From positions 1 to 59,253 of the IMG/VR virus record IMGVR_UViG_3300013119_000886: DNA of 59,253 nucleotides. The stretch is one strand, 5' to 3'. This DNA comes from a virus. A program made the position numbers and the translations under genes. Below are positions 1,386 to 51,797 of the stretch, piece by piece. The notes under the pieces are model-generated. The model made no database searches and was not told the DNA's origin. It saw nothing but the letters and a program-made list of their open reading frames with translations. The first letter of the stretch is position 1. The number at the start of each line of letters is the position of its first letter.

Positions 1386-2344
1386 GTGTGATAATATCAG
1401 CAGGTTCTAATACCGTGCACCAATACGAAAATGATGGGTTTGTTTATGGTTGTTGTTTTGAATCATATGGTTATTTGTTTCAATATTTAGGACACAAGGT
1501 TATATATCTAGGTAGAGATATATTGTCTTGTGGGGCTGTAAGCTCGGATATTGTTTTTATCGAATGGCATCCAATTGAAGCACCTCAAGCAATAGAAGCA
1601 GTAAGAAGTAGTGCTAAGTATGTGTTTATAGTGCAACATGGCAGCGAGCCTGAGATTCAAGAAATGCTATATAAATGCCCTTTAGATTTGTGTGATGCAA
1701 TAATTCTGTATGATGATACTTACCAAAAGATAAATAAGACTATTGATACTCCTGTTATAGCTATTCCTCATCCTGTTTTGTTTAATCGCATTGGTTCAGG
1801 TGAGCAAAATTATACTGATGACTTAGTTTTACTATCACACAGGCTAACACCAGATGATAAAACAAGAGCATTGATGTTGACATTTTTAGCTGCTACACGA
1901 TTAGAAAAAAAGATATTTGTTATTAGTGGTGACGAATATAAAGACGAGACTACGGAAGCAATAAAAAACTTAGGGTTGCCTGATTCTGTTGACTATGAAG
2001 TATCTGGATATTTAAGTGATGAGGATTTTAACAAAGTTGTTGCTTCTGCCTGTTGCATTTTGTCGTATGTGCCTTATCCTTCATTTGGTAGAGATGTGCC
2101 TATAGCGATTAACCACAAAAAGCTACTTATAGGTTCACCATATGTGGTGCAGAGATATTTGTTTCCTGATTTAGTATGCAAATCATACCCTGAATTTGTT
2201 GATAAGATAGATAAATTCAAAAAGGGAAAATTTGTCACTGAATCAATACTGGAAAAAGCAGACAATTACAAGCATTTATTTTCAATTGAGCACTTGTCTG
2301 ATGTTTTAAGGAAAAAATTAACGGAGGTTGGTATAGATGTCTAA
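1382..2344 (+). CDS. GT-B glycosyltransferase-like protein
   Basis: 320 aa. The layout suggests two Rossmann halves: a first half ending around YVFIVQHGSEPEI and a second with LVLLSHRL, then VSGYLSDEDFNKVVASACCILSYV, a pattern seen in the donor half of GT-B enzymes. No catalytic residue can be named with certainty. It starts inside the ATGA overlap with the methyltransferase gene and ends 8 nt inside the next. A role in sugar addition to a surface structure is inferred from these neighbours. Confidence 0.5.
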   Translation: MSVIISAGSNTVHQYENDGFVYGCCFESYGYLFQYLGHKVIYLGRDILSCGAVSSDIVFIEWHPIEAPQAIEAVRSSAKYVFIVQHGSEPEIQEMLYKCPLDLCDAIILYDDTYQKINKTIDTPVIAIPHPVLFNRIGSGEQNYTDDLVLLSHRLTPDDKTRALMLTFLAATRLEKKIFVISGDEYKDETTEAIKNLGLPDSVDYEVSGYLSDEDFNKVVASACCILSYVPYPSFGRDVPIAINHKKLLIGSPYVVQRYLFPDLVCKSYPEFVDKIDKFKKGKFVTESILEKADNYKHLFSIEHLSDVLRKKLTEVGIDV

Positions 2345-3314
2345 ACCAATTGTATTGTTAGTAAGCTGTGTTGGAGAAGAAGGCATAATTAGGTCGCCCC
2401 AAAACACTAGGGAAAGTAGGTCTCCCCAAACTTCGATGTCTTACGCATACGCTGTCGCTCAATTTGCTGATGTTTATTGGATTCATGGGAGTAGAACTGC
2501 ATTAGACTTTTTAGACGTAATCAAGCCAGATGCAATTGGTATTTGCCCTGGTGTTCCAAAAGCACACGCATTTGCTTTGGCTGCCAACAGTCTTGGTTTC
2601 CCTGTTATTGTATTTGGGCAAGAACAAGGAATGACAAATGGTACAGCAGCATATTCTGAAATTCAATGCACAGAAGTACGGCAACTATTTGAAAACATAA
2701 CTGCGTGGGTTGGCGCAGTGTTGCCACAATTCATGATTGATGCTCAATTCTTTGACTTTGCTCTTCATAATTTATGGATGCCGATTATTCCGCCTAAAGA
2801 CATTCCTAAAGAGACACTATTTGATGCTGAAAAGTGCTGGTTGCCTAACTCTGGCGTAGACTATTTTTCCTATTTGCCTGTAAAAGCTATTCTTCTTGCT
2901 AAAGCTATGAAAAGCAAGGATGTAATTGTCCAGTTTCATCATGAGGTAAAATCTAATTTTGGCAACTTGCCTGTTAGAGCAGAAAAAGTTGTGCCGTACC
3001 CTGAGCATATGGCAATGATAGAGAAAGCGGATGCTGTCTATGCCCTAGACGAAGGTAGGATTTTGCTAGGTCGTGCTTTTGCAATGGCAGCTTATTATGG
3101 AACACCTGCTTTTGGTCTTCCACATAGAGTTGCTGGTGCTAATTACTTTTTCCCAGAATTAGCAAAGATTACAACTATTCATGAATGTGACGAAGCTATG
3201 ACAAACATTGATGCCATCTTAGACAACGCTAGAAATATTGTGGAAAATTGTCTGTGGGGTGACACTTATAATGCGAGGTTGAAAGAAATATGTTTCCAAC
3301 ACTGGAATCTTTAA
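2337..3314 (+). CDS. unknown protein of glycosyltransferase-like cassette
   Basis: 325 aa, preceded by GGAGGTTGGTATAG with good spacing. It has Rossmann-like segments (PIVLLVSCVG; VYWIHGSRTALDFLDVIKPDAIGI) and a C-terminal part with DAVYALDEGRILLGRAF and ATYYGTPAFG-like wording that resembles GT-B C-terminal domains. I cannot assign a family. It overlaps the next gene by 25 nt. Confidence 0.45.
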   Translation: MSKPIVLLVSCVGEEGIIRSPQNTRESRSPQTSMSYAYAVAQFADVYWIHGSRTALDFLDVIKPDAIGICPGVPKAHAFALAANSLGFPVIVFGQEQGMTNGTAAYSEIQCTEVRQLFENITAWVGAVLPQFMIDAQFFDFALHNLWMPIIPPKDIPKETLFDAEKCWLPNSGVDYFSYLPVKAILLAKAMKSKDVIVQFHHEVKSNFGNLPVRAEKVVPYPEHMAMIEKADAVYALDEGRILLGRAFAMAAYYGTPAFGLPHRVAGANYFFPELAKITTIHECDEAMTNIDAILDNARNIVENCLWGDTYNARLKEICFQHWNL

Positions 3315-9139: not shown

Positions 9140-10564
9140 TTATTGCTGCTGTATATTTTGTGGCAAACGTAATTTACTATAGATTATTTGGTTTTCGTAT
9201 TCCATTATATAATCTATAACTGCCTCTGACCACCCATCCACATGAACCCATTTGCCATACCCTATACCATTTTGATTACTAGCTATATTTATTAAGTAGT
9301 TATTTCTACCAAAAGCATTGGCTTTACTAGGCTCACCGCCAACTCTATTATCACAATCTTGCTCATCAGTAATAACTATAATTCTATCTGCTGTTTTTTC
9401 TTCTTCATACACATAATCCATTACTTGCTTAAGAAATATACCCCCACCACCTAATGGTGTGCATTGCGAATATATTGAATCTGACAAAGCAAACCCGCGT
9501 CTATTAGGTACTGTTGTTGTAGCGTGTATCCTTGTATTGTCATTACCTGCGGTAGCGTAAATAACTATATCTTCACAGATTTCCCTTGTAATTAAAGCCA
9601 TAGAACAAGCTACTTTAGCGCGGTCTGTCTCACTTTGCGCTGATATTGACCTGTTATACATACTGCCAGATACATCTACTATTAGAATGGTTTTGCCTAG
9701 TAACTTAGATTTATTTGATAACATTTTCAATAGTGCTTTTTCAATATACTCTTCTAGTTTCGGAGCAGCGGCAGCAGCATTCAAAAATCTAAATGGCAGT
9801 ATCATGTCACTATTCATATTTTCCAAAGCTGTAATAATTAGGTGTTTATTTACTCCCTCTTGAACCATATTTCTGAGATTTCTAATTAGTGCTAATCCAC
9901 CTAATTTATTCTCTTTTAATAATCTTTCCCATTTTATCACTTTAGGTATACCGTCATCTTTACTTAGAGCCACTTCCCAAGTATCAGGTGGTGACAGGTT
10001 GCCACTCATCAAATTAGCCCATATGTCAGATTGTTCCTTAGTTTTTGGTATAGGGTGGACTAGTCGCATTACATCCTTTAAAGTTACTTTAGCCTTACGA
10101 TTGTACTTGGCTAATTGATATTCACTAAACTTAGTAAATGCTTTAGCTAACCCCTTTTTTACTTGTGCTGATAGTGGTTGTGTATTATCATCCTTCCAGT
10201 AAATAGCTAAGAACTCACCCATCTCATCTGGTCTTTGTATAATTGCAGATAGAGTATCTTTAACTAGGCCTTTATAAGTATTTAATCTAGCCATTTCCCT
10301 CACTATAAGTAGTGGTACATGTCGTAGTTTCATTTTAGTGCGAGCTTCTATAGCTATAATAGATACTTTTAGCGGGTCAACTTCTGGTATTAGCCTAGCA
10401 ATTCTCTCTGCAATAGTTTCTCCGTCTTCATAAAATTCTTTTTCCCACAATAGACAACTCATCACCGATCGTCTTAATTGTAACTCTGGAGTTATATGAG
10501 CTGCTTTAGCGCCTTGATGTGTGTATACAGGCTCAAGGTTGCGAGGTTTATTTAATTTTGCCAT
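9140..10564 (-). CDS. TROVE-domain (Ro60-type) RNA-binding protein
   Basis: 474 aa from ATG 10564, which has AAAGGA 9 nt upstream; the frame extends upstream to 10618 without a ribosome site. Residues about 1-290 are the all-helical TROVE ring (RRSVMSCLLWEKEFYEDG; LRHVPLLIVREMAR). The C-terminal von Willebrand A domain has a MIDAS motif DVSGSMYN near residue 323 and TDEQD. Ro60-type proteins bind misfolded RNAs and Y RNAs, acting in RNA quality control; bacterial forms work with exoribonucleases. The structured region just upstream is a natural candidate for the partner RNA. Confidence 0.93.
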   Translation of the reverse strand: MAKLNKPRNLEPVYTHQGAKAAHITPELQLRRSVMSCLLWEKEFYEDGETIAERIARLIPEVDPLKVSIIAIEARTKMKLRHVPLLIVREMARLNTYKGLVKDTLSAIIQRPDEMGEFLAIYWKDDNTQPLSAQVKKGLAKAFTKFSEYQLAKYNRKAKVTLKDVMRLVHPIPKTKEQSDIWANLMSGNLSPPDTWEVALSKDDGIPKVIKWERLLKENKLGGLALIRNLRNMVQEGVNKHLIITALENMNSDMILPFRFLNAAAAAPKLEEYIEKALLKMLSNKSKLLGKTILIVDVSGSMYNRSISAQSETDRAKVACSMALITREICEDIVIYATAGNDNTRIHATTTVPNRRGFALSDSIYSQCTPLGGGGIFLKQVMDYVYEEEKTADRIIVITDEQDCDNRVGGEPSKANAFGRNNYLINIASNQNGIGYGKWVHVDGWSEAVIDYIMEYENQIIYSKLRLPQNIQQQ

Positions 10565-10604
10565 CGTTATTTTTCCTTTATTGATATTTACTATACTTTT
10601 AATT

Positions 10605-10697
10605 ATAAAAATAGCCACTGAAGAAAAAGGTAATTACAGAATGTTATTACATTGTAAGTGTAAGAAGTAACTGTAATCAATACTATCAGCGGCTATT
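10605..10697 (-). ncRNA. candidate Y RNA-like element upstream of the TROVE gene
   Basis: On the - strand the two ends pair in an 11-bp stem (10687-10697 with 10610-10620, one G-U pair), which is A-C mismatched if read on +. Inside are a 7-bp helix (10671-10677 with 10633-10639) and a hairpin (10649-10653 with 10640-10644), plus a pyrimidine-rich internal loop around 10621-10632. A T-run follows the stem. Paired ends, an internal pyrimidine loop and position next to a Ro60 gene resemble Y RNAs. No sequence-level Ro-binding motif could be confirmed. Confidence 0.45.
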
Positions 10698-14926: not shown

Positions 14927-15688
14927 CTATATTATGATTGTTTCGTTCTGCTTAGCTAACTTAAATCCGTGTTCTTTTATTTCGTCAAGGTAAAAATGAT
15001 AATTATCAGTATAGTGCATAAGTGTTATCTTCTGCTTAATTTCTGTTGGTAGCGTTTTTAGTTGTTCAAATGTTGCATGAACTGTTGGGGTATCACTAAA
15101 TTCACAATCATGAAAAATCATGTTGTAGTTATTTCTATTATCGACTAGAGCCAACTCGAATTTAGTATTACTAGTATAAAGCATGCCTTTATTTTCTTCA
15201 GATATTTGGAGACAGTAACTTGGCATTGTCAAGAAGTTTACATGATGTGCTGGTATGAACTTTATTGATAGACTACCATAATTAAAATAATTAGGACTAC
15301 ATCGAGTAATGTCAAATGCGTCTGATAATAACAAGCAATCAGTAGTTGTATCAAGTGGAAACTTTACTGGCAAGCTGCCAGTAAGAGGAGCAGGAACAAA
15401 TAGCTTGACTTTATTATGTCTCAAATCATCTATGTTGCCTTTATGTATAACAAAAAGTAAATAGTATACAAATTCTTCTATACCTCCAATATGGTCAGCA
15501 TGTGCATGAGTTATAGCAATAGCACCTATTTCACTAATGTCAATGTTGCATTCCCATAAAGCTCTACCAGTAGTGTGTCCACAATCAATTAGTAATGGCT
15601 TGGTATTATCAGACAAATAAACCAATGCTGATGTGTTCCAATTCGTTCTACTAAAAGCAGAGCCTACTCCAATAAATTTGACTTTCAC
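14927..15688 (-). CDS. MBL-fold metallo-hydrolase (RNase Z-like)
   Basis: 253 aa starting at GTG 15688 after AAAGGGGG. The metal motif is THAHADHIGG (HxHxDH), with further histidines in FIPAHHV, FHDCEF and MHYTDNYHF. Overall shape (MKVKFIGVGSAFSR at the N-terminus) resembles the RNase Z/ElaC branch of the metallo-beta-lactamase superfamily, which contains tRNA 3' processing nucleases. The exact substrate cannot be told from sequence. Confidence 0.8.
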   Translation of the reverse strand: MKVKFIGVGSAFSRTNWNTSALVYLSDNTKPLLIDCGHTTGRALWECNIDISEIGAIAITHAHADHIGGIEEFVYYLLFVIHKGNIDDLRHNKVKLFVPAPLTGSLPVKFPLDTTTDCLLLSDAFDITRCSPNYFNYGSLSIKFIPAHHVNFLTMPSYCLQISEENKGMLYTSNTKFELALVDNRNNYNMIFHDCEFSDTPTVHATFEQLKTLPTEIKQKITLMHYTDNYHFYLDEIKEHGFKLAKQNETIII

Positions 15689-25064: not shown

Positions 25065-25805
25065 CTAACCATCTAAATTGAGAGTTTTGTAGGCTTTAGG
25101 CCTGGAGACTAGTACCAAACCCATTCTTCTAGCTAAATCTACATCTTCTACTTCATCTAGAGTGACACCAAACTTTTCTTGGCAATAAGTATCAAATACT
25201 TCTGGGTCAATCTTATACTGTGCGAGCTTATGTTGTGCTGTTACTCTTACAGTTACCAATTCTTGCTTTTCTTGTTCAGCGATATAACTCAACAACAAGG
25301 TTCTAACAAGGCTATATGGCAGCACTTTTTTAAGTGCGTTTCTGCCTGCTTTAGTAACTGCTTTAGCTAAAGCGTAATTATCTTCTCCACCATTACCTAG
25401 TCGCTTTGGTTGTTGTGCAGCACCCTCAAATGTAATATCTCGCTTTTTATCTTCTGCACTAGCTACTACCTCATAATCAGGGGAATTTTCATTGCTTACT
25501 ATCTCACTAGTTACCTTAATCCCACCATACATTTGAGCTACTTCAAAGATTCCAGTTGCATTAAGGTCAACTACTTCATTTCCACCGTGATTAAATCTGT
25601 AAAAGTAGTGCCCAATTATTTCACCACTCATCGCTTTAATTATTTCACTGTCAGCGATTCTTTCAGCTATTTGAAACTCTTCATCAGTGGATGGTAGTTT
25701 GTATAACTTACCTTCTATTTCTGCTAGTTTTACGTTATCAGCAACTTTCTTCTGATACTCTTGTTCGCTGATAACTTCTTGGTTTTCAGACAAATTAACC
25801 TCCAT
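25065..25805 (-). CDS. candidate single-strand annealing/recombination protein
   Basis: 246 aa. The segment RLGNGGEDNYALAKAVTKAGRNALKKVLP resembles the helix of phage annealing proteins in which an aromatic-Ala-Lys-Ala pattern is conserved, and the protein lies between an SSB-like gene and a Cas4-like nuclease gene, a typical recombinase module. No catalytic motif is expected in such proteins. Its leader contains a canonical hammerhead ribozyme that cuts 24 nt before the start codon. Confidence 0.5.
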   Translation of the reverse strand: MEVNLSENQEVISEQEYQKKVADNVKLAEIEGKLYKLPSTDEEFQIAERIADSEIIKAMSGEIIGHYFYRFNHGGNEVVDLNATGIFEVAQMYGGIKVTSEIVSNENSPDYEVVASAEDKKRDITFEGAAQQPKRLGNGGEDNYALAKAVTKAGRNALKKVLPYSLVRTLLLSYIAEQEKQELVTVRVTAQHKLAQYKIDPEVFDTYCQEKFGVTLDEVEDVDLARRMGLVLVSRPKAYKTLNLDG

Positions 25806-25822
25806 CTAACTTTATTTGCGAT

Positions 25823-25903
25823 TACTCGCTATCACTAGTATAACTATTATAATTACACTAGTGATTTCGTCTTCTATCGCTGAGAAGACTCATCAGGCTA
25901 GTA
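25823..25903 (-). ncRNA. type I hammerhead ribozyme (canonical core)
   Basis: Reading down the - strand: stem I 5' side (25903-25897), core CTGATGA (25896-25890), stem II 6 bp (25889-25884 with 25874-25869, 9-nt loop), core GAAA (25868-25865), stem III 8 bp plus the A15.1-U16.1 pair (25864-25857 with 25839-25832), cleavage triplet AUA (25832-25830) and stem I 3' side (25829-25823, one A-G mismatch). All invariant core bases match. Cleavage falls between 25830 and 25829, leaving a 24-nt leader on the next mRNA. That leader can refold into a GCGA/TCGC hairpin with a GTAA tetraloop. Confidence 0.92.
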
Positions 25904-26056
25904 CTATTTCCATAATTTCGCCTACTAAATTTTCTAAAACTCTGACCCTTTCCTCTTGTAAAGTCCTCTAATTTCGATTTTAAGGCACTAAGTTTATAAT
26001 TTAGGTATATATCTATACTATATGCTCAACTTTTCATTGTGGTTGACGTGGGGTGT

Positions 26057-26986
26057 TCAGAATGGCGATGAGAAATCTGTCCTTAACTTATCTTTTGCTT
26101 TTGCTTTTGTGATAGATTTAAGAAAACCTGAGTTTAACTCTGGGTGTGGAGATTCTCTTATACTCAGTAACTTTTCATTATACTTTCCAGTACACACATC
26201 ACCAAATTCACACCAACGCCTGTACTCATTACAGGCGTCAGGAGCTCTGTGAAAATAGTTTCTATCACGACAATAATTGATATGACTGACTATTTCACCA
26301 ATATCAGCCATTATAGAAGCGACTTCCGCTTCACTTCTAGGTATTTCAAGGAAAGTAAAATACTCAGCTAAGTTATCAGATACATGGTTACTTGCTCTTT
26401 CCCAATATTCTTGCTTGGTCTCCGGTTGCCTCTTTAATCGCTGTTGTAATCCTACTGTTTTGATATAGTTAATTAGAATACCGCCAACATCATAACCATT
26501 CTCTCTAGCCATGTGGATATACATGTTACTCTGGATAGCTTTTTCATACTTTTCTGGTTGTTTCAAATGAAATGAACTGCTTTTATGCTCTACTATCCAC
26601 AGTTTACCATTATAATCAGCTATAGCATCACATTTGCCAGCATAAATAGTGCTACCTGCTGTAACAGATAGCTCTTTCTCTATCTCTATTACTTTATCTA
26701 AAGTAGGTAGTAATTGCTGCTGTTCAGCAAAATCTTTACCTTCTAACAAAACTATAGCATGCTGTATAATGTCTTCATTGTACTCTGATTGACGTAATAC
26801 TTTGCTATAGTCTTCACCATTTAACATTGCTGCTAATCCATCATGAATTGCTTGCCCTAATAGCAGGGCGTTACTGGGTTGAAAGAACAATGGCGCTTTT
26901 TCTTTATCTGCACATAGTTCATTCTCATAGTAATAATATGCAGGGCATCTACAGTATCTTCTTAAAGCGGTACTAGTGTATATCAT
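26057..26986 (-). CDS. Cas4-like PD-(D/E)XK nuclease
   Basis: 309 aa. The nuclease motif is YAGKCDAIADYNGKLWIVEHKSS (D ... EHK). Cysteines in RRYCRCPAYYYYE at the N-terminus and CNEYRRWCEFGDVC near the C-terminus give the four-cysteine 4Fe-4S arrangement of Cas4/AddB-type nucleases. No cas1/cas2 or CRISPR array is present, so a role in DNA end processing during phage recombination is more likely. The start overlaps the preceding stop. Confidence 0.88.
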   Translation of the reverse strand: MIYTSTALRRYCRCPAYYYYENELCADKEKAPLFFQPSNALLLGQAIHDGLAAMLNGEDYSKVLRQSEYNEDIIQHAIVLLEGKDFAEQQQLLPTLDKVIEIEKELSVTAGSTIYAGKCDAIADYNGKLWIVEHKSSSFHLKQPEKYEKAIQSNMYIHMARENGYDVGGILINYIKTVGLQQRLKRQPETKQEYWERASNHVSDNLAEYFTFLEIPRSEAEVASIMADIGEIVSHINYCRDRNYFHRAPDACNEYRRWCEFGDVCTGKYNEKLLSIRESPHPELNSGFLKSITKAKAKDKLRTDFSSPF

Positions 26987-27225
26987 AAGTCAATACCTTC
27001 ACTTTCTCTACCCTGGAGTTCGCTGTTTATTAGTTCTACAATACCTTCAAGGATAGGAATTATATCAGCTTCTTCACGCTGCATATTTTTTAATAAGTCA
27101 TCTCTAACTAATATTAACGTTTTTTTGGTGTATAATTCTATTAGCCCCAAGCTCCTATAAATATTATCTAGCATTACCCCAGCACCAAAATAGTCTCTAT
27201 TATTCTGTGCATTATTACTGGACAT
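26983..27225 (-). CDS. small hypothetical protein
   Basis: 80 aa from ATG 27225, preceded by CGGAGGTTAGT. Helical and acidic C-terminus (ILEGIVELINSELQGRESEG). It overlaps the nuclease start by 4 nt (ATGA), suggesting functional coupling. A variant hammerhead ribozyme would cut 28 nt before its start. Confidence 0.6.
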   Translation of the reverse strand: MSSNNAQNNRDYFGAGVMLDNIYRSLGLIELYTKKTLILVRDDLLKNMQREEADIIPILEGIVELINSELQGRESEGIDL

Positions 27226-27246
27226 ACTAACCTCCGTTATTTTATT

Positions 27247-27335
27247 ATACTGCAACTAGTTATCACTACTAATATTGCTACTAATAGCATGGATTAAGAT
27301 AACTAGTTTCTGCTTTTGGCTTTTTCAAGCAGTAT
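27247..27335 (-). ncRNA. type I hammerhead ribozyme, U3-A8 variant
   Basis: Stem I 7 bp (27335-27329 with 27253-27247), core TTGAAAA (27328-27322), a short stem II (A-A mismatch, then 2 bp, 27321-27311), GAAA (27310-27307), stem III 9 bp plus A15.1-U16.1 (27306-27298 with 27064-equivalent side 27264-27256), triplet GUU (27256-27254). Compared with the consensus CUGANGA, C3 is U and G8 is A; these positions pair in active hammerheads, so the change is compensated. The TGA stop of the upstream gene (27327-27325) is core U4-G5-A6. Predicted cut between 27254 and 27253. Confidence 0.68.
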
Positions 27336-27708
27336 TAACTATTATTTTTATTTTGTGAGAAACAATAGTTTTGATTTCTTTGTCTATGTTTGTAGTGTGA
27401 ATACAACTGTTAGCAATAATGTCCACTGTTGCCATTTTGCCAACTAATGCTTTATTTAGCTTTTTTGCTACTGCCTTAGCGTTTTTACCATCGAACCTGT
27501 TAGCAAATCTATCTTGGGTTATTTTCAATATTGAGCAACATGCTTTTTGTAACTGCTCAATCATCCAGTTATAATTGAGGTTGAAGGGTTGAAACAAATT
27601 ATCTGCAAAGTAAATATTAACCGTGCTTGCTGCACAACCAACGCCCTTGATTTCTAATTGTTGCTCGCCTAACTTGTAGGCAAGGAAGGTGATTTCCTTT
27701 GTTTGCAT
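27325..27708 (-). CDS. hypothetical protein
   Basis: 127 aa; TAGGAGTATTAA precedes ATG 27708. Alternating beta and helix, with NAKAVAKKLNKALVGKMATVD. No family recognised. Its stop codon lies inside the hammerhead core at 27327-27325. A perfect 10-bp hairpin occupies the gap upstream (about 27781-27807). Confidence 0.6.
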   Translation of the reverse strand: MQTKEITFLAYKLGEQQLEIKGVGCAASTVNIYFADNLFQPFNLNYNWMIEQLQKACCSILKITQDRFANRFDGKNAKAVAKKLNKALVGKMATVDIIANSCIHTTNIDKEIKTIVSHKIKIIVNTA

Positions 27709-27818
27709 TTAATACTCCTAGCGTTTCCTTTCATGCTTAAGTTCTAACTCTCTAATTAAACGCTTACTATTGCGCTATGTTTACTATAATATATTAGATT
27801 ATAGTAACTTCCATCTAT

Positions 27819-28262
27819 TTACTTCAGCCAAGATTTGGACGCTTTACCTTTAAGTAAGGCTAGATGGTTTTGAATCTGGCGTTCTGGAGTAGATGTATTC
27901 ATATACTGCCTCACTTTTTTTATTTCTTCTACGGTGTCATTTACCCACTCTTGCATACATGCTGTTGATGGCATTTCCCTCACTTGTGTTACTTCTTGAT
28001 AGCGGTAATAGCGCGGGCTTGTTTTATTAAGTTGATATTGGCTACGTTCATTATCATAAGGTACATAACCATTGACACTATAGGCACAACCTTCGTCATA
28101 AGTTTCAAACACTAAACTTTTGTCTATCTCTACAGTTTTTGTAAGTTGCTTTTGTTGATTTACCCTGCCAGATTCACAACGGATTTCAACTAAATAGTCG
28201 TCACCGTCCCAGTTATTGCCAGTAGTATCATTGCAGATTATTACTAGTGACAATAACTTCAC
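27819..28262 (-). CDS. hypothetical protein
   Basis: 147 aa starting at GTG 28262 with a weak AAAGAG-like site. It contains GDDYLVEIRCESGRVNQQKQ and a C-terminal helical part. No family recognised. Confidence 0.55.
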   Translation of the reverse strand: MKLLSLVIICNDTTGNNWDGDDYLVEIRCESGRVNQQKQLTKTVEIDKSLVFETYDEGCAYSVNGYVPYDNERSQYQLNKTSPRYYRYQEVTQVREMPSTACMQEWVNDTVEEIKKVRQYMNTSTPERQIQNHLALLKGKASKSWLK

Positions 28263-28290
28263 TCTTTATCTGGTTATTAGTGGAGTTGCA

Positions 28291-28494
28291 CTATTCTTCT
28301 TTTACTGATGGATGCCTAATTGTATCCCTACTTATCATATTGCGAGCCTGATATTTACGATGACGTTTCCAGCATTTGTCATCAATATTACTAGGGTAAA
28401 TATCATCCCACTCAGTAGGTACTTGAGTTCTTTTTATACTACTATCTATATAACTTAATTGTAAGGTTCTTCGTGTTTTGGGTTTGCGGTGCAT
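28291..28494 (-). CDS. small basic hypothetical protein
   Basis: 67 aa, rich in Arg/Lys (MHRKPKTRRTLQLSYIDSS; CWKRHRKYQAR). It starts immediately after the preceding stop (TAATCATG), so it is probably translated by reinitiation. May bind nucleic acid. Confidence 0.5.
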   Translation of the reverse strand: MHRKPKTRRTLQLSYIDSSIKRTQVPTEWDDIYPSNIDDKCWKRHRKYQARNMISRDTIRHPSVKEE

Positions 28495-28496
28495 GA

Positions 28497-28877
28497 TTAC
28501 ATGTACAATTCTATTACAAAAGGGTTCTTACTTATGTAGTTATCCCATCCGCCTACTGTTGTATCAGATGACCGCCACCTTACTGGGAATATCCTATCCT
28601 GAGTTACTGTACGGCTAGTTTTGATTACTGTAATAGCCGAACCATACTTTGAATATACTTCACCTTCTTTGATACTGCAAGGTGCTGCTCTGAACGTAAA
28701 GCTACTGTTAGTATGGTTATAGCTAACAGGACTGCCATTAAAACCAAATGATTGTTGTTTGGCTTCACACCAACTTACAAATCTGCCAGTTTGACAGTCC
28801 CTAACTCTTGGAGTGTAACCAAGGTTTATACCATTGGCTACTACTCGACTATTCGTTGTACTCATTACTCTATCCAT
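28497..28877 (-). CDS. hypothetical protein
   Basis: 126 aa, AGGAGTTAAAA before ATG 28877. Serine/threonine-rich with VRDCQTGRFVSWCEAK. A similar stretch (VVRDKRTGKFINHSLA) occurs in the 64-aa product at 30869-31063, so the two share a small module. Function unknown. Confidence 0.55.
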   Translation of the reverse strand: MDRVMSTTNSRVVANGINLGYTPRVRDCQTGRFVSWCEAKQQSFGFNGSPVSYNHTNSSFTFRAAPCSIKEGEVYSKYGSAITVIKTSRTVTQDRIFPVRWRSSDTTVGGWDNYISKNPFVIELYM

Positions 28878-28916
28878 TTTTAACTCCTGTTTATAGTCCG
28901 TAGACTTTAAATTAAA

Positions 28917-28958
28917 AGCCTTATGTGAGATTTGAACTCACTCAACCTGCTATAAGGC
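28917..28958 (-). ncRNA. minimal tRNA-like element (acceptor stem + T-arm)
   Basis: A perfect 7-bp acceptor-like stem (28958-28952 with 28924-28918) is followed by a 10-nt linker and a perfect 5-bp T-arm (28941-28937 with 28929-28925) with loop TTCAAAT, stacked directly on the acceptor 3' strand as in tRNA. D- and anticodon arms are absent. A surrounding 7-bp helix (29000-28994 with 28909-28903) encloses it, and TTTTAATTT follows. Architecture and linker length match the element at 7093-7134. A processing signal or terminator is possible. Confidence 0.6.
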
Positions 28959-29009
28959 TATTGGGCTATTAAGTATAACCGTCCATTTAAGACTAAAGTC
29001 ATCATTTTA

Positions 29010-29210
29010 CTAAATACCCCAATATTGTTGTCTGCTTTTTATTATTCTTATAATGTCTTCATTGGGGTAACAGTCCCTTAGCAATTGTAAAATCACTTCT
29101 ATGTCTTTAGCTAAGATATTTTGACACTGACTTTCACTAACTAATTGTTCATAACGACTGTTAGTGTAATCACTCGATTTTGGTGGTAATTTACTTTGAT
29201 TTATACTCAT
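29010..29210 (-). CDS. small hypothetical protein
   Basis: 66 aa; GGGAGTTAAGA precedes ATG 29210. Contains LAKDIEVILQLLRDCYPNED, a possible UBA-like helical segment. The leader left by hammerhead cleavage is 28 nt. Confidence 0.55.
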   Translation of the reverse strand: MSINQSKLPPKSSDYTNSRYEQLVSESQCQNILAKDIEVILQLLRDCYPNEDIIRIIKSRQQYWGI

Positions 29211-29232
29211 TCTTAACTCCCATATTAGATTT

Positions 29233-29322
29233 TGTTGCGACTATTTGCCACTAATTATATTACTATAATTAGCATGGATAATAAAGGCAAATAGTTTCTG
29301 GTTTAACCTTTGTCAAGCAACA
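29233..29322 (-). ncRNA. type I hammerhead ribozyme, U3-A8 variant
   Basis: Stem I 6 bp (29322-29317 with 29238-29233), core TTGACAA (29316-29310), stem II (A-A mismatch then 3 bp, 29309-29299), GAAA (29298-29295), stem III 9 bp plus A15.1-U16.1 (29294-29286 with 29249-29241), with an inner hairpin CTAATTATA/TATAATTAG, and triplet GUC (29241-29239). It shares the C3-to-U and G8-to-A change with the element at 27247 and begins directly after the stop codon of the upstream gene. Predicted cut between 29239 and 29238. Confidence 0.72.
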
Positions 29323-29556
29323 TTAAAACGGTATGGTATGCCAATCTAAATCTAATTGCTCAAACTCTAACTTCTCTAGTAAATTGGAGTGGTAAACAAT
29401 CTGCTCGTCTTCTAGTTCCTCTTTTAATGCTTTTAATTTTTTGCATGCTACACTATATTGCCCATGTAGTAACTCATACTCCACCGCTCGGATTTCAGGC
29501 AATATCTCAAAACTGTAAACCTTATTCTGTACTTCTTCGTCGAATATAACTGACAT
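29323..29556 (-). CDS. small hypothetical protein
   Basis: 77 aa, helical, acidic (FDEEVQNKVYSFEILPEIRA; KALKEELEDEQI). AAAGGAGATTAAAGGAA precedes ATG 29556. No motif. An 11-bp hairpin (29579-29589 with 29605-29615) lies in its leader. Confidence 0.55.
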   Translation of the reverse strand: MSVIFDEEVQNKVYSFEILPEIRAVEYELLHGQYSVACKKLKALKEELEDEQIVYHSNLLEKLEFEQLDLDWHTIPF

Positions 29557-29578
29557 TTCCTTTAATCTCCTTTTGGTT

Positions 29579-29615
29579 ACCCTGCACTACATATTTAAGT
29601 GGAATAGTGCAGGGT
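29579..29615 (-). promoter_or_regulatory. 11-bp intercistronic hairpin
   Basis: A perfect 11-bp inverted repeat, with GGT/ACC closing pairs just outside on the - strand separated by a 7-nt purine loop. On the + strand it is followed by five T residues, but no + strand gene precedes it. It lies 23 nt before the start at 29556, the same distance as the hammerheads from their genes. Confidence 0.5.
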
Positions 29616-29620
29616 TTTTC

Positions 29621-29812
29621 TTACCTGTACCTTAGTACACTAAACAACACTTGCCTCTGCTGTTCTGTTATTTTGTTCAGTAACATATACTGTTCAGCAG
29701 GTGGTAATGCTCGGAACTTTCTATTATACTTCTTTGCAATATCCCTTTCACTCTTGCCCATCACTTTTACTAATCTTGTAGGTGTGGAGTGCCTAGCTAT
29801 TCCTTTTGTCAT
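29621..29812 (-). CDS. small basic hypothetical protein
   Basis: 63 aa; AGGAGATTCTCA precedes ATG 29812. Basic and helical (VKVMGKSERDIAKKYNRKFR). It overlaps the upstream gene's 3' end by 20 nt. Possibly nucleic-acid binding. Confidence 0.5.
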   Translation of the reverse strand: MTKGIARHSTPTRLVKVMGKSERDIAKKYNRKFRALPPAEQYMLLNKITEQQRQVLFSVLRYR

Positions 29813-30230
29813 TGAGAATCTCCTTTACTGCTTTGTTTACTAGATCTAACTTGCTAATAGACTCGTCATATTCTGTTAATTCAAGTTTCATTTGCTCTAT
29901 TATAGTCGCAAGCGCTTCGCTAAATCCTGCCATAATGCTCCTAATAAGAGGAGCATTATTTTTAACGTTACCCCAATATGCAGCGTAGGTAGCAGGGGCA
30001 TAGTCGCAATGGGGTTCTGCATCATTTAACAACCACCACTCGCCGCAGTCGCAAATCAAATTTACAGATTGCGCGTGTTCTTCATGCTCACAAACATAAG
30101 CAGTGAATATCCCTTGATGCAAATGAGTTACTTCATCGAGTAACTCAAATAACTCTATAAAACTGTTGCTAATATGACTTTGCTTTTCTGCTAATTGTTT
30201 GGATACCATCATTATATCTAACATGTTCAT
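29793..30230 (-). CDS. hypothetical protein
   Basis: 145 aa; AAGGAAGGAAA precedes ATG 30230. A cysteine/histidine cluster (YVCEHEEHAQSVNLICDCGE ... PHCDYAP) suggests metal binding. The canonical hammerhead upstream leaves a 25-nt leader. Confidence 0.55.
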   Translation of the reverse strand: MNMLDIMMVSKQLAEKQSHISNSFIELFELLDEVTHLHQGIFTAYVCEHEEHAQSVNLICDCGEWWLLNDAEPHCDYAPATYAAYWGNVKNNAPLIRSIMAGFSEALATIIEQMKLELTEYDESISKLDLVNKAVKEILNDKRNS

Positions 30231-30250
30231 TTTCCTTCCTTAGTTATTTT

Positions 30251-30320
30251 GTTGCGACTGCTCTAGTATAATAATCACTAGAGCAGTTTCGTCTTAATTT
30301 GCAAAGACTCTTCAGGCAAC
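30251..30320 (-). ncRNA. type I hammerhead ribozyme (canonical core)
   Basis: Stem I 5 bp (30320-30316 with 30255-30251), core CTGAAGA (30315-30309), stem II 5 bp (30308-30304 with 30295-30291), GAAA (30290-30287), stem III 10 bp plus A15.1-U16.1 (30286-30277 with 30267-30258), cleavage triplet GUC (30258-30256). Every invariant base of the hammerhead core is present. Predicted cut between 30256 and 30255, 25 nt before the start codon at 30230. Confidence 0.93.
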
Positions 30321-41400: not shown

Positions 41401-41649
41401 ATGAAAATATACAAATGTGACATATGCTCAGTATTGCTTGATGATAGTCCTTACTATAGTATAAGCGATATAGAATTTCATTCGGGAAAAGAGGATAATT
41501 ACACCTTAATTACAAATAGCACTGATACTAGTACAACTAATGACACAATACAAAGTTGGGTTAGTTATGCTGATATGCACTTTTGCGAGTGTTGCTGGAA
41601 TAAATTAGAGGTTGCAAAGATAATTGAAGAAAGATTAAGGAGCAAATGA
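41401..41649 (+). CDS. small zinc-binding protein
   Basis: 82 aa; CGAGGAAACAAGAAA precedes ATG 41401. YKCDICSVLLDD and FCECCWNKLE form two cysteine pairs of a zinc ribbon, with a Ser/Thr-rich middle. It overlaps the next gene by 4 nt. Confidence 0.6.
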   Translation: MKIYKCDICSVLLDDSPYYSISDIEFHSGKEDNYTLITNSTDTSTTNDTIQSWVSYADMHFCECCWNKLEVAKIIEERLRSK

Positions 41650-42239
41650 AAATGTACGTTAAAGCGGTTTTATCTGTCCGCAGATACAAAGCAGGATATG
41701 AAGTTAGGGAAGAGCTTGTCGCTGGCAACCAATTTGATATGGATGATATTAAAGTGAAGACAGCATATACACCAGATGGTCACTATATTGGTGATTCTAA
41801 AACAGCGTATCGACTGTGTAAAAAGCGGGGTATAAAGCCAGAACCGATTGATTCAGAACACAACGTATGTTCAATCGGGTTCTGCGAAAAAGAACAGAAA
41901 TGGTATGGTTGGTCTCACCGAGCTATTTATGGTTTTGGGATTGGCTCAACTTGCAAAAAGGGTGATTGCCATTACGTTCCAACATCTTTTGAGGAAATAC
42001 AAGTAGATTGTTACGCAAAAGAAGAAGATGATTGTGTAGCAAATTGCACCGTTGCTTTAGAACCTGTTAATCCCGATGAGCCAGAAAGGGTACAAAGAGC
42101 TATCCCTGATTCTGAAGAAGGGCGTTGCGTTTGTGCTCAAGAAAACTGTGTCTTTGAAGTTGGGCGTGGTGAATGGGTCGCCAAAACTTTAGATGACGCC
42201 AAACAAATGGCAGTTGATTTTGCTAAAAGTGTTGCATAG
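41646..42239 (+). CDS. conserved phage-type hypothetical protein
   Basis: 197 aa. It contains HYIGDSKTAYRLCKKRGI, CEKEQKWYGWSHRAIYGFG, several cysteines (CKKGDCHY, CVANC, CVCAQENC) and a C-terminal helix. The GC content is higher than in flanking genes and codon use differs, suggesting separate origin. I do not know its function. Confidence 0.65.
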   Translation: MKMYVKAVLSVRRYKAGYEVREELVAGNQFDMDDIKVKTAYTPDGHYIGDSKTAYRLCKKRGIKPEPIDSEHNVCSIGFCEKEQKWYGWSHRAIYGFGIGSTCKKGDCHYVPTSFEEIQVDCYAKEEDDCVANCTVALEPVNPDEPERVQRAIPDSEEGRCVCAQENCVFEVGRGEWVAKTLDDAKQMAVDFAKSVA

Positions 42240-43698: not shown

Positions 43699-44757
43699 AT
43701 GAGCGATAGAGCTTTAGCTACAATAAGAAGAATATCTGATGTTCAACCAATCGAGGGTGCAGACAGGATAGAAGTGGCAACTGTGGATGGGTGGCAAGTA
43801 GTAGTTAAGAAGGGTGAATTTAGTGTTGGTGATTTAGGTGTATACTTTGAGATTGATTCTTTCCTGCCTGTTGATGAGCGTTATGAGTTTTTAAGAAAGA
43901 GTTCTTACAAAAAGTTTAGTGATGGCAGAGAAGGATTTAGAATTAAAACTATAAAGTTAAAGAAGCAAGTTAGTCAAGGATTGTTGTTGCCCTTAGCGGA
44001 ATTTCCTGAGATTAATCCTTTACTTAGTGACAATGTAGATATAACAAAAGTATTAGGAGTTAAGTTATATGAACCACCTATGCCTGTTCATATGGGCGGC
44101 GATCCTAAATCAACAAGGCCGTGGTTTATACCTAAGACTGACCAAGAGAGAATACAAAATAATCTAAAGTATTGGGAAGAATATAAAGATACTAATTTCG
44201 AGATTTCAGAAAAAGTCGATGGAACGAGTTGCACGTGGTTCTATAAAGATGGTGAATTTGGTATTTGTTCTAGGAATTTATTATATGGAGAAGAGAGTGA
44301 TAGTATCTATGCAGTAGTAGCCAGGGATGTTGAGATTAGTGAGGTGCTAGAGCAATTATGTAAGGATAATGGTGAAAACTTGGCATTGCAAGGTGAAATA
44401 ATTGGGCCTAGTATACAGGGTAATCCTTACAAGTTAGATAAGCCTCAGTTTTTCTTATTTGATATTTATGATATAGACAATCAGAAATATTTAATTGCTG
44501 GTGAAAGGCTTAAAATTGTGGAAAGTTTAAATAACTTACTTTGCTTGCATCACGTTCCTGTAATTGATATTCAGTCACAAATATTTAGTACAATTAGTAA
44601 CATTGATGGTTTATTAGTTTTTGCTGAGGGCAAATCCTTATTGAATAGTGATGTAGAACGTGAGGGTATAGTATTTAAGGCTTTAGAAGCTGATGATTAT
44701 GGTGAGATTCTGTCATTTAAAGTTATTAGTAACCAGTACTTATTAAAAAGCAAGTGA
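43699..44757 (+). CDS. ATP-dependent RNA ligase (DRB0094/Rnl5-like)
   Basis: 352 aa; AAAGGAGTTATT precedes ATG 43699. The N-terminal OB-like domain (IRRISDVQPIEGADRIEVAT ... DGWQVVVKKGEF) is typical of the DRB0094 family. The nucleotidyltransferase motif I is SEKVDGTSC with the adenylated lysine, followed by FGICSRNLLY (motif Ia/III region) and LQGEIIGP (motif IIIa). REGIVFKAL and ILSFKVISNQYLL are motifs IV and V. It seals RNA ends and may repair tRNA or process phage RNAs. Confidence 0.9.
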   Translation: MSDRALATIRRISDVQPIEGADRIEVATVDGWQVVVKKGEFSVGDLGVYFEIDSFLPVDERYEFLRKSSYKKFSDGREGFRIKTIKLKKQVSQGLLLPLAEFPEINPLLSDNVDITKVLGVKLYEPPMPVHMGGDPKSTRPWFIPKTDQERIQNNLKYWEEYKDTNFEISEKVDGTSCTWFYKDGEFGICSRNLLYGEESDSIYAVVARDVEISEVLEQLCKDNGENLALQGEIIGPSIQGNPYKLDKPQFFLFDIYDIDNQKYLIAGERLKIVESLNNLLCLHHVPVIDIQSQIFSTISNIDGLLVFAEGKSLLNSDVEREGIVFKALEADDYGEILSFKVISNQYLLKSK

Positions 44758-48393: not shown

Positions 48394-48789
48394 ATGGATA
48401 ATATCAAGATTAAATTAGACAGAAATATGGTTACCAATCATGTTGATATTTATGTAGTAGCACAAGATTTGAGTGGTCATATATCCTATTTAGTATGTGC
48501 GGATAATAAATTACTTGAATATATGGAAATGGCTGAAGGTTGTAGTTACCAAGATATAGAGCCTTTGATGTGTATTAGTGAAGAATCGTTTCAGCCTTTT
48601 ATGCTGGCATTGATAAGAGAATATAAATTGCAGTTTGAGGGTGCTGATAATGAGAAAGCAGCTTTGCAAGCTGTGTGTGATAGCTTAGAAGATGAAGTGG
48701 ATTTTTATAGAAGTATGTTTAAGGATTTTGCTGGTAATTTAAGTAAAGGAAATTTGCACGTAACTGTTACTGGTGCTGATGATAAATGA
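48394..48789 (+). CDS. hypothetical protein between terminase subunits
   Basis: 131 aa, acidic, with a possible coiled coil near the end (ALQAVCDSLEDEVDFYRSMF). AAGGGTAAATTATA precedes the start. It overlaps the terminase gene as ATGA. Function unknown. Confidence 0.55.
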   Translation: MDNIKIKLDRNMVTNHVDIYVVAQDLSGHISYLVCADNKLLEYMEMAEGCSYQDIEPLMCISEESFQPFMLALIREYKLQFEGADNEKAALQAVCDSLEDEVDFYRSMFKDFAGNLSKGNLHVTVTGADDK

Positions 48790-51700
48790 GAAAAATACTG
48801 CAAGTATATAATGAAGTAAGAAATAGCAATGTACCGGAAGCGGAAAAATCACTGATAATAAAAACTATTAAACAGGAATATAGGCAATCTATAAAGGAAT
48901 TAGCTACTACTAAATTCTGGGCTTTTTGTGAATATTGTCTTAAAGATGAGCAAACTGGTGAGCATGTAGAATTGCAAGACTTTCATGTAGAATGGTGTAA
49001 TCTGGTTCAAGCCACAAAGAAACTTGTGTTATTCAGTAGTATTGAGTCAGGGAAATGCGTAGATGGTAATTCTTTAGTAGCTTTATCTGATGGCACTAGA
49101 AAATTAGCTAGTGAAATAGTTATTGGTGATGAAGTATTATCAATGGATAGTAGATGGAAGATACAACCAACTAAAGTTGTTGCCACTGAGTGCAATGGTC
49201 ATAAAGACTTATTAAACATTACTACCCAATCTGGAAGAAATATCAAGGTAACTGCAAACCATAAGTTTTATATATTGGGTGAGAAGTGGATAGCAACTAG
49301 TAGATTAAAAATAGGGGATAGGATTGCGACACCAAGATTGTTGCCAGTAAAGAATGGCAAAGCTAATATTGATAATCGTATTGAACTGTTAGGTTATTTA
49401 ATAGCTGAGGGTCACTTGAATAGTTCCACTCCATCAATAACAACTGCTGATGATGATATTCTAAATCGTGTTAGGTTTTTAGTAGAGAGTCTCGATTTAA
49501 AATTATCTAATAGTGATGGCAGGTATACTTACAGGATATGCAAAAAAGGTAAAAAGAACCCTACTTATAAAAGCTCTATTGCCGACTGGTTAGAGGAAAT
49601 AGGCTTATTAGGGAAAAAGTCACATACGAAACTGATTCCTGAATGTGTTTTTAGTGCAAGTAATGATGAAAAGGCTTTATTTTTATCTGCATTATTTTCT
49701 GGTGATGGTCATGTTAGAAATGGTAAGCCTCGTTTAGTATCTTATACTTCTGTTAGTAAACGGTTAATAAATGATGTTCAATCATTATTACTTCATTTTG
49801 GCATATTATCTCAGATACACTCAAGATATACCAAGTATGACAATAGCGGCAAAGAGTTTTTGTCTTATAGATTAATGATCGGGAATAAAGAAAGTTTATT
49901 GAACTTTAAAAATACTGTTAAGTATTTATATCCTATTCACAAAACAGAAAGAATGGAGGCTTGGAGTTGGGATAGAATTTCTTGCGGTAACTTGGATGGT
50001 ATACCTGTTGCATGGAAAAAATATCAATATTGGAATGATTTTAGGCACGAAATATTATATGGGAAGAACCCTGCGATTATGAAGTATGAGGTTACTTCTA
50101 GAGAGAGAGTATATCAGATAGCTAATAACGAGATAAATGATTCTCAGATAGTAATGGATTTTGTTAATCCTAAAGTGTTAATGGATTTAGCTACGTCAGA
50201 TATTTTCTGGGATAAAATTGTATCTATAGAAAATGCTGGCGATGATTTAACTTATGATATTCAAGTAGAAGACAACCATAATTTTATAGTAAATAATTTT
50301 ATTACTCACAATTCTTCCATTCTATCAATAGGTTATCCCTTGTTTGTTTTAGGTAATAATGCGTCATTACGTGCTGCTATAGTGTCAAATGTAGCTACAG
50401 CAGCAAGTAAGTTTCTAGGTGCAATCAAGGAATATATATTGCGAGATAAAGATGTGCAAGCTGTATTTCCTGATTTAAAGCCAATGAAAGACAGGGTCAA
50501 TCCTAATAGAAACGAGAAATGGACTGATAGCGCTATAATTGTTGAGCGTCCCTTTATTTCTAAAGATTTCAGTCTTCAAACTTTAGGTGTTAAAGGTCCT
50601 TTATTAAGTTCTAGGTTGAACTTGCTTATACTAGACGATGTGTTGGACAAAAAAAATACTGACAGTGAAACAGAAAACACAAAAATAATTGAGTGGCATG
50701 ATGCTATTGCTAAGGGGCGGCTAGTAACTGATGCACAAGAAATAGTTGTTGGTACAGCGTGGGGCCCGTCGGACATGATGCACTATTTATCAGACAAAGA
50801 AGAATATACTACTGTTAAGTATTCAGTAGAGCAAGAAGACGTGGATGCTGGTACTCACAAGTTAGTTTATTGGCCGGACAGGCATCCTAGAGAAAAATTA
50901 GATGCTGAAAGAAGATATAATCCTGATGAGTATAATAGGCAAAGAAGAAGTAGAGTATCATCTAGAGATACCCAAGAATTTCACGATTATGTAGAGAATT
51001 ATATAGACAAATCAGTAGAAGTTGGTGAAGACTGGATTAAGTTTACAGGTATAGATTTATCATCGTCTAAGCGACCTGGTGACGTTATTTGTGACGTGGC
51101 AGTTTCTCCTGATTTGCAAAAAAGAGTAGTTGTTGATATTGAGTACGGTCAATGGAAAGCAAATATAAGAGCAGAGCATATAGGTGCTCATTATGATGTA
51201 CACAACCCAAGAATAGTTAGTGTAGAAGATAATGCTTTACAAAGTGATAACTTGGAATGGATGGAAGTGGTGGGTTATAAGCATTTACCATTACAAGGGT
51301 TTACAACTACTGGTGCTAATAAAGATGGTTTAGTGATGAACAACGCTATTGAATTACGCAATGGTTTATGGCGTTTTAAAGTTTTGCATGATTTTGATGA
51401 GATATGTAAATGTCATTGGTGTAGATTTATTAAAGAAGTGAAGAATTATCCTGATTACAAAACCTCAGATGGATTTATGGCGTGGTTATTAGCAAGTGAA
51501 GCAGCTAGGAGTATAGCAAGCAGAGAACCTAGATTTAGAATATTAGATTTAAACCAAGATATTGCAACAGCAGCGTTGCTGGCTAATAAGCCAGTATTTA
51601 CATTAGCTGATTATAGCATAAATAATCGCTTAACTTCACCAGATTTTATACCACCACCTGATTATGCTGATATAGTAAAAGAGATTATTCGTAATGATGG

Positions 51701-51797
51701 CAATGTTGTGGAATTTGATATATATGATAGTGAAGATGTTTTATACGTACATGCTGAAATGAATAGGGTTATAGGGATACTAAATGGAGAATCTTAG
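48786..51797 (+). CDS. terL: terminase large subunit, interrupted by an intein
   Basis: 1003 aa precursor; removing the intein (residues 91-509) leaves a 584-aa terminase, the usual size. The N-extein ends at FSSIESGK and the C-extein starts with SSILSIGY, so the intein splits the Walker A P-loop. Walker B is LNLLILDDVLD. The C-terminal RNase H-like nuclease starts FTGIDLSSS and continues DVAVSPD and VVVDIEYGQW. It powers DNA packaging and cuts concatemers; splicing is needed for activity. Confidence 0.95.
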   Translation: MRKILQVYNEVRNSNVPEAEKSLIIKTIKQEYRQSIKELATTKFWAFCEYCLKDEQTGEHVELQDFHVEWCNLVQATKKLVLFSSIESGKCVDGNSLVALSDGTRKLASEIVIGDEVLSMDSRWKIQPTKVVATECNGHKDLLNITTQSGRNIKVTANHKFYILGEKWIATSRLKIGDRIATPRLLPVKNGKANIDNRIELLGYLIAEGHLNSSTPSITTADDDILNRVRFLVESLDLKLSNSDGRYTYRICKKGKKNPTYKSSIADWLEEIGLLGKKSHTKLIPECVFSASNDEKALFLSALFSGDGHVRNGKPRLVSYTSVSKRLINDVQSLLLHFGILSQIHSRYTKYDNSGKEFLSYRLMIGNKESLLNFKNTVKYLYPIHKTERMEAWSWDRISCGNLDGIPVAWKKYQYWNDFRHEILYGKNPAIMKYEVTSRERVYQIANNEINDSQIVMDFVNPKVLMDLATSDIFWDKIVSIENAGDDLTYDIQVEDNHNFIVNNFITHNSSILSIGYPLFVLGNNASLRAAIVSNVATAASKFLGAIKEYILRDKDVQAVFPDLKPMKDRVNPNRNEKWTDSAIIVERPFISKDFSLQTLGVKGPLLSSRLNLLILDDVLDKKNTDSETENTKIIEWHDAIAKGRLVTDAQEIVVGTAWGPSDMMHYLSDKEEYTTVKYSVEQEDVDAGTHKLVYWPDRHPREKLDAERRYNPDEYNRQRRSRVSSRDTQEFHDYVENYIDKSVEVGEDWIKFTGIDLSSSKRPGDVICDVAVSPDLQKRVVVDIEYGQWKANIRAEHIGAHYDVHNPRIVSVEDNALQSDNLEWMEVVGYKHLPLQGFTTTGANKDGLVMNNAIELRNGLWRFKVLHDFDEICKCHWCRFIKEVKNYPDYKTSDGFMAWLLASEAARSIASREPRFRILDLNQDIATAALLANKPVFTLADYSINNRLTSPDFIPPPDYADIVKEIIRNDGNVVEFDIYDSEDVLYVHAEMNRVIGILNGES
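49056..50312 (+). mobile_element. LAGLIDADG intein in TerL
   Basis: 419 aa from Cys (codon 49056) to Asn (codon ending 50312). Block A starts CVDGNSLVALSDGTRK. The C-terminal splicing block reads NHNFIVNNFITHN and is followed by Ser. Between them are two LAGLIDADG motifs (LLGYLIAEGH and LFLSALFSGDGH), indicating an intact homing endonuclease. It sits between Lys and Ser of the ATPase P-loop. Confidence 0.95.

Follow-up and report, generated by a model that had tools for sequence, protein, structure and literature searches.

The 59,253-base virus record IMGVR_UViG_3300013119_000886 of IMG/VR (positions 1–59,253, all of which was analysed and is here called the window) carries genes for a terminase, a portal protein, a DnaB-type helicase and a UvrD-like helicase, among other phage genes, together with four minus-strand elements that have the layout of hammerhead ribozymes and are named HH1 to HH4 below. 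The main open reading frames (ORFs) from about 33.0 to 7.2 kb lie on the minus strand, and HH1–HH4 are hosted by a leftward operon of a tailed phage with replication and recombination genes. All four elements sit between genes of the same strand, immediately ahead of a ribosome site. Specifically, HH4 spans 30251..30320, HH3 29233..29322, HH2 27247..27335 and HH1 25824..25902, essentially where an initial annotation of this DNA had placed them, and the predicted first nucleotides after the cuts (30255, 29238, 27253 and 25829) are exactly those that it gave. Four hammerheads lie within 5 kb on one strand, as in the clustered phage hammerheads described by Perreault et al. 2011 (PMC3088659).

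Each element consists, from 5′ to 3′, of the 5′ strand of stem I, a seven-base core, the stem II hairpin, GAAA and the stem III hairpin, which is closed by A15.1–U16.1 and followed by H17 and the 3′ strand of stem I. Stem I is open and stems II and III are closed in all four, as in type I hammerheads. Position 15.1–16.1 is A–U in 4/4, and H17 is A, U, C and C in HH1, HH2, HH3 and HH4, respectively. The conserved core (C3 U4 G5 A6 N7 G8 A9 ... G12 A13 A14) is complete in HH1 and HH4, which also have the G10.1–C11.1 pair, whereas HH2 and HH3 carry U3–A8 and, instead of G10.1–C11.1, A·A. The CUGANGA-like core that had been ascribed to the whole set is present in HH1 and HH4, and HH2 and HH3 depart from it at positions 3, 8, 10.1 and 11.1. 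In particular, HH4 is a canonical type I hammerhead with the core CUGAAGA, a predicted cut at 30256/30255, 5 bp in each of stems I and II and about 11 bp in stem III besides A15.1–U16.1, and its stem-loop II, GAGUCUUUGCAAAUUAAGACGAAA, occurs unchanged in two other viral contigs, L134 and L163. HH1 has the canonical core CUGAUGA, a predicted cut at 25830/25829, a stem I of 2 bp, an A·G mismatch and further pairs, a stem II of 7 bp and a stem III of about 15 bp. The variant HH3 (core UUGACAA, predicted cut 29239/29238) has a stem I of 6 bp and a stem III of 9 bp that continues into a long apical arm, and the variant HH2 (core UUGAAAA, predicted cut 27254/27253) has 7 bp in stem I and 9 bp in stem III. 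HH2 and HH3 are probably paralogues, because they have in common an apical arm with UCCAUGCUA.

The predicted cuts would leave short leaders ahead of the downstream genes, all on the minus strand. The leader of HH4 (GCAACAAAATAACTAAGGAAGGAAA, 30231..30255, 25 nucleotides (nt)) contains a ribosome site and precedes a 145-amino-acid ORF at 29793..30230 that matches no Pfam family. The HH3 leader (GCAACAAAATCTAATATGGGAGTTAAGA, 29211..29238, 28 nt) has the same first 10 nt as that of HH4 and precedes a 66-amino-acid ORF at 29010..29210. The HH2 leader (27226..27253), likewise 28 nt long, places GGAGG 5 nt ahead of the ATG of the ORF at 26983..27225, after which comes an ORF for a PD-(D/E)XK nuclease (26986–26057). 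These three lengths agree with the initial annotation, which had also given HH1 a leader of 24 nt by starting the next gene at ATG 25805. That start is doubtful, because the ATG overlaps GGAGG, and the GGAGG–5 nt–start layout, in which GGAGGTTAATTTG at HH1 parallels GGAGGTTAGTATG at HH2, points to TTG 25793. As judged from this layout, the gene after HH1 (25065..25793) probably starts at TTG 25793 rather than at ATG 25805, and its leader (25794..25829) would be 36 nt long. Between successive cuts lie a block of about 1.0 kb with three ORFs (HH4–HH3), one of about 2.0 kb with five ORFs (HH3–HH2) and one of about 1.4 kb with two ORFs (HH2–HH1).

Structural descriptors and folding were compared with shuffled sequence. 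A descriptor that leaves positions 3 and 8 unconstrained, run on both strands of the window, matches only HH2, HH3 and HH4. Over 150 dinucleotide-shuffled windows it matched 22 times (0.15 per window), and the strict canonical descriptor not once. When at least 6 pairs are required in stem I and at least 8 in stem III, as found in the long, perfect stems of HH2 and HH3, 1 match is left in 1,200 shuffles, and none in 1,200 when this long-stem form must also have a Watson–Crick pair at 3–8. HH1 is found only by a descriptor with a relaxed stem I, because of its one A·G mismatch there. The folding z-scores of the four elements are −4.4 to −4.7, with 0/200 shuffles equally stable. Predicted as single strands, HH1, HH2 and HH4 fold into the hammerhead layout; in the minimum-energy fold of HH3 the core bases pair otherwise, around stem II. 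Pairs were compared between copies by hand-indexed positions, since MAFFT did not align the cores correctly. Two-sided changes between the four copies occur at 13 of 19 pairs, the core pair 3–8 is C–G or U–A and never mismatched, and HH2 and HH3 differ from each other on both sides of six pairs.

The Rfam hammerhead families, which the initial annotation had put forward as a check, report none of the four elements at gathering scores. Below threshold (E up to 10), only HH4 is matched, by RAGATH-1-hammerhead (RF03152) at 24.2 bits, against a gathering score of 56.3, and by Hammerhead_3 at 16.8 bits; nothing is listed for HH1–HH3. HH4 resembles RAGATH-1-hammerhead in core and stem order, but the extra 5′ stem of that model matches poorly. 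An independent covariance model was trained on 36 hammerheads taken from other viral contigs, with no sequence of the window included. In the window this model ranks HH4 first (40.2 bits, E = 3.9e-11) and HH1 next (26.9 bits, E = 1.5e-6), ahead of a place with E = 0.18. HH3 receives 7.2 bits, and HH2 is absent from the list. By this test HH1 and HH4 are ordinary hammerheads, and the canonical-core model does not recognise HH2 or HH3.

The placement of HH1–HH4 recurs in other phages. A survey of IMG/VR with one stem-II pattern fetched at least 120 loci, from which at least 116 distinct type I hammerheads were parsed, 111 of them with enough surrounding sequence; ORF calls were simple and some contigs are related, so that the counts below are to be read within these limits and as counts among the matches listed. 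The predicted cut falls 15–60 nt before an ATG-initiated ORF of at least 50 amino acids in 74 of the 111 (67%), compared with 18.5% of random same-strand positions and 4/111 on the opposite strand. A first spacing test, which required a Shine–Dalgarno motif and ORFs of 60 amino acids, gave 32/106 against 5.6% at random; the lower share reflects the AT-rich leaders of many of these phages, which lack a Shine–Dalgarno motif. Two to four hammerheads occur in 23 of 82 loci, and no locus has them on both strands. In the 17 loci with at least two such leaders, the mean within-locus difference in leader length is 4.1 nt, compared with 13.4 nt after shuffling (0/10,000 shuffles as small). One array, at 1258–2955 (+) of the viral contig L179, has five hammerheads in 1.7 kb with leaders of 22, 20, 21, 20 and 22 nt that begin UUAACCAU. 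Similar arrays occur in L205, L220 (leaders of 21, 21 and 21 nt), L233 (19, 21 and 20 nt) and L130, and in several arrays stem I (GGUUAA/UUAACC) and the first bases of the leader (UUAACCA) are kept, with loops II and III as the variable parts. Model searches of 12 whole records found 2–5 matches in 11 of them and one in the twelfth. HH4 has exactly the stem-loop II GUCUUUGMAAAUUAAGAC of IMG/VR phage hammerheads such as those in L134, L163 and L171, which are likewise placed before genes; its stem III is longer than most of theirs, and the loops of HH1–HH3 differ.

Hammerhead clusters are known from phages. Perreault et al. describe multiple hammerheads that often flank single genes or short gene blocks in prophages and propose that long phage transcripts are processed to operon- or gene-length mRNAs; three tandem sets cleave in vitro, and one of these, from A. 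tumefaciens, also in E. coli (PMC3088659). The view of the initial annotation that a set of hammerheads serving one operon is not standard is wrong, given these clusters and the same kind of processing already proposed for them. HH1–HH4 are a clear new case of such clustered phage hammerheads, with unusual cores in two of the four. Like the prophage sets (the A. tumefaciens ardA triple, C. scindens and A. caulinodans), they are several one-strand hammerheads that flank genes or gene blocks; unlike those clusters, for which the paper reports cleavage, they belong to a different phage for which we found no near relative, and two of the four combine U3–A8 with A10.1·A11.1. The HHphage element of haloviruses HF1 and HF2 is also comparable: it lies 13 nt before a helicase start, its mapped 5′ end is at most 3 nt from the cut, and, as in the operon studied here, a hammerhead stands just ahead of a gene start in a polycistronic phage transcript, in that case ahead of a replication gene (PMC3088659). 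However, HHphage is a single element of an archaeal virus, and HHphage and HHmeta carry insertions beside C3 (2a, 2b), whereas HH1–HH4 have zero insertions next to C3 and stem I, the hallmark of the salt variants. The part of PMC3088659 available gives a start-codon distance for HHphage only, and we did not find within-phage regularity reported there. A fixed distance to the start codon and its uniformity within a phage were not found stated in the openly readable literature either, and no priority is claimed.

The best explanation of the locus, which we regard as probable and which agrees with precedent, is that type I hammerheads HH1–HH4 divide a polycistronic phage mRNA, as the initial annotation had proposed, and do so co-transcriptionally. 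The sequence, pairing, layout, covariation and placement of the elements are observed directly, as is the like placement in many other phages; cleavage, a single common transcript and any influence of the new ends on RNA decay or translation are inferred. Each hammerhead would fold as the RNA is made and cut 3′ of stem III and 5′ of the 3′ strand of stem I, so that the transcript would fall into the HH4–HH3, HH3–HH2 and HH2–HH1 blocks and a remainder. Each downstream piece would have a 5′-OH-GC... end, a leader of 25–36 nt with the ribosome site, and the start codon. The upstream piece would end in the ribozyme body, with the stem II and III hairpins at its 3′ end and a 2′,3′-cyclic phosphate. 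In the type I orientation, stems II and III would stay with the upstream piece, and the downstream piece would inherit no more of the ribozyme than the short 3′ strand of stem I, an arrangement that fits a short, unstructured leader ahead of a ribosome site. The 5′-OH end would resist decay pathways that need a 5′ phosphate, the 3′ hairpin end would resist 3′ exonucleases, and the likely gain would be a separate translation and decay rate for each block. The survey gives general support to the division of transcripts, since starts are enriched just past the cut and leader length is uniform within a phage.

Several points weigh against this explanation. Self-cleavage of HH1–HH4 is a prediction. 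Fast cleavage by type I hammerheads requires a tertiary contact, a loop–loop interaction or a pseudoknot between stems I and II, and we identified none in HH1–HH4. HH2 and HH3, which lack G8 and G10.1–C11.1, may be slow or inactive, and A·A at 10.1/11.1 is not among the variants seen in the available part of PMC3088659. Searches for near relatives of the phage by DNA and by three ORFs returned none, with only distant tblastn matches, and no relative was found that would show conservation of HH1–HH4. Uniform spacing within a phage could also arise from copying of a ribozyme-plus-leader cassette. A promoter scan found sites no commoner than in shuffles and so decides neither for nor against separate promoters for each gene. 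Whether HH2 and HH3 are active, and cut at a useful rate, is the main doubt about the mechanism.

This doubt leads to the view, in our judgement unlikely, that only HH1 and HH4 cut, which would give two division sites, while HH2 and HH3 have decayed or cut very slowly, and persist as hairpins or as slow, conditionally acting ribozymes. Both lack G10.1–C11.1 and have A at position 8, and the low score of HH3 and the absence of HH2 with the canonical model fit this view. So does the search for A·A forms in other viral contigs: IMG/VR patterns with GCUUGANAAA..AGAAAC and with a GC/GC stem II gave no credible hammerhead among the matches listed, and a GG/CC stem II pattern gave none in a complete listing. 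For comparison, a natural U10.1·U11.1 mismatch has been reported, with U·U the best-tolerated mispair there (PMC3088659). However, decay would not exchange both partners of C3–G8 together for U3–A8, nor would it maintain the six pairs at which HH2 and HH3 differ on both sides. The bases at 3 and 8 pair in the active structure, natural U3–A8 covariation was reported in 2011, and the U3–A8 exchange was by then already known to be active in vitro (PMC3088659). Additionally, an IMG/VR scan for U3–A8 with stem II GUCU/AGAC (complete listing) returned 28 places, of which one is a true hammerhead, at 1760–1823 (+) of the 137-kb viral contig L264. This natural U3–A8 hammerhead occupies the same position in another phage: it starts 8 nt past the last base of one ORF, and its predicted cut lies 35 nt ahead of the ATG of the next ORF, which has GGAGGA.

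The variant elements also bear on a second and more doubtful proposal, that the ribozymes are regulators whose cleavage is decided by upstream translation or by a protein or ligand on the long stem III arm. The UGA stop (27327–27325) of the upstream 127-amino-acid ORF (27325..27708, minus strand) forms U4-G5-A6 of the HH2 core, so that termination and ribozyme folding would compete for the same bases, and HH3 starts immediately past the stop of the preceding ORF. With the stops at these positions, stem I would have its 5′ strand occupied by any ribosome that is completing the upstream gene. The apical arm shared by HH2 and HH3 is in keeping with this proposal, and regulation has been suggested as a possibility for slower phage variants (PMC3088659). 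However, HH1 and HH4 lie apart from the genes upstream of them, we identified no site for a ligand or protein, and common descent may alone explain the shared arm.

Transcript division by simple cleavage is also preferred to a scheme in which paired hammerheads free gene blocks that are then ligated into circular or spliced RNAs. The blocks are indeed flanked by successive type I hammerheads, and the phage encodes an RNA ligase (43699–44757 (+), PF09414, with a PHA02142 OB-fold domain) and a Ro60-like protein with a TROVE domain (9140–10618 (−), PF05731, E = 4.7e-21). However, ligases of the PF09414 type join a 3′-OH to a 5′-phosphate. Hammerhead ends, with a cyclic phosphate and a 5′-OH, suit RtcB instead, and no RtcB is present among the 30 ORFs scanned against Pfam. 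Perreault et al. sought such products and found none (PMC3088659). We regard this scheme as very improbable. That the four elements are chance matches, or ordinary intergenic hairpins misread as hammerheads, is scarcely credible: plain hairpins do lie between operon genes (~29615–29579 and 30567–30537) and nothing is reported at Rfam gathering cut-offs, but the shuffles, the independent covariance model, the covariation and the matching placement in other phages speak against it, and for HH1 and HH4 it is already contradicted.

Other structured RNAs and genes accompany the hammerheads. The first of the two plain hairpins (29615–29579, minus strand) is strong, with 12 bp, stands between two ORFs of the operon (z −3.95 for 29625–29557) and is not a hammerhead; the second, at about 30567–30537, is also intergenic. 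A tRNA-like minihelix at 28958–28918 (−), between two ORFs and within a larger outer stem, has a 7-bp acceptor (GCCUUAU/AUAAGGC), a 5-bp T stem and a 7-nt loop (UUCAAAU), without a D or anticodon arm. Candidate identities are an RNase P site and a Y-RNA-like piece, and it may act as a second processing signal; its descriptor has 0.18 matches expected by chance per window. The terminase ORF (48786–51797 (+)) contains an intein with a LAGLIDADG endonuclease, and the ORF at 53436–55313 (+) has weak radical-SAM and anaerobic ribonucleotide-reductase matches and an intein-like insert. Candidate counter-defence genes encode a Tad6-like Thoeris inhibitor (41646–42239 (+), PF25188, E = 2.3e-56) and an Apyc1-like anti-Pycsar protein (14927–15688 (−), PF23023).

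Tentatively, the division of this transcript by HH1–HH4 may be one instance of a wider practice, in which many phages use hammerheads as a general maker of 5′ ends and HH2 and HH3 represent an active, undescribed core type (U3–A8 with A10.1·A11.1); we consider this broader view possible, though we would not rely on it. Each gene or block would then have its own ribozyme at a fixed distance from the start codon, and cleavage would yield nearly monocistronic mRNAs with short, standard 5′-OH leaders. As recently as 2023 the role of many hammerheads near phage genes was still called unknown (PMC10085705). The operon described here, together with the phages that carry three to five copies at a fixed distance, offers a case open to direct test: were the ribozymes the makers of mRNA 5′ ends, loss of any one of them would be expected to fuse two messages and alter the output of one block. 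HH2 and HH3 would also illustrate the extent of natural drift in the hammerhead core.

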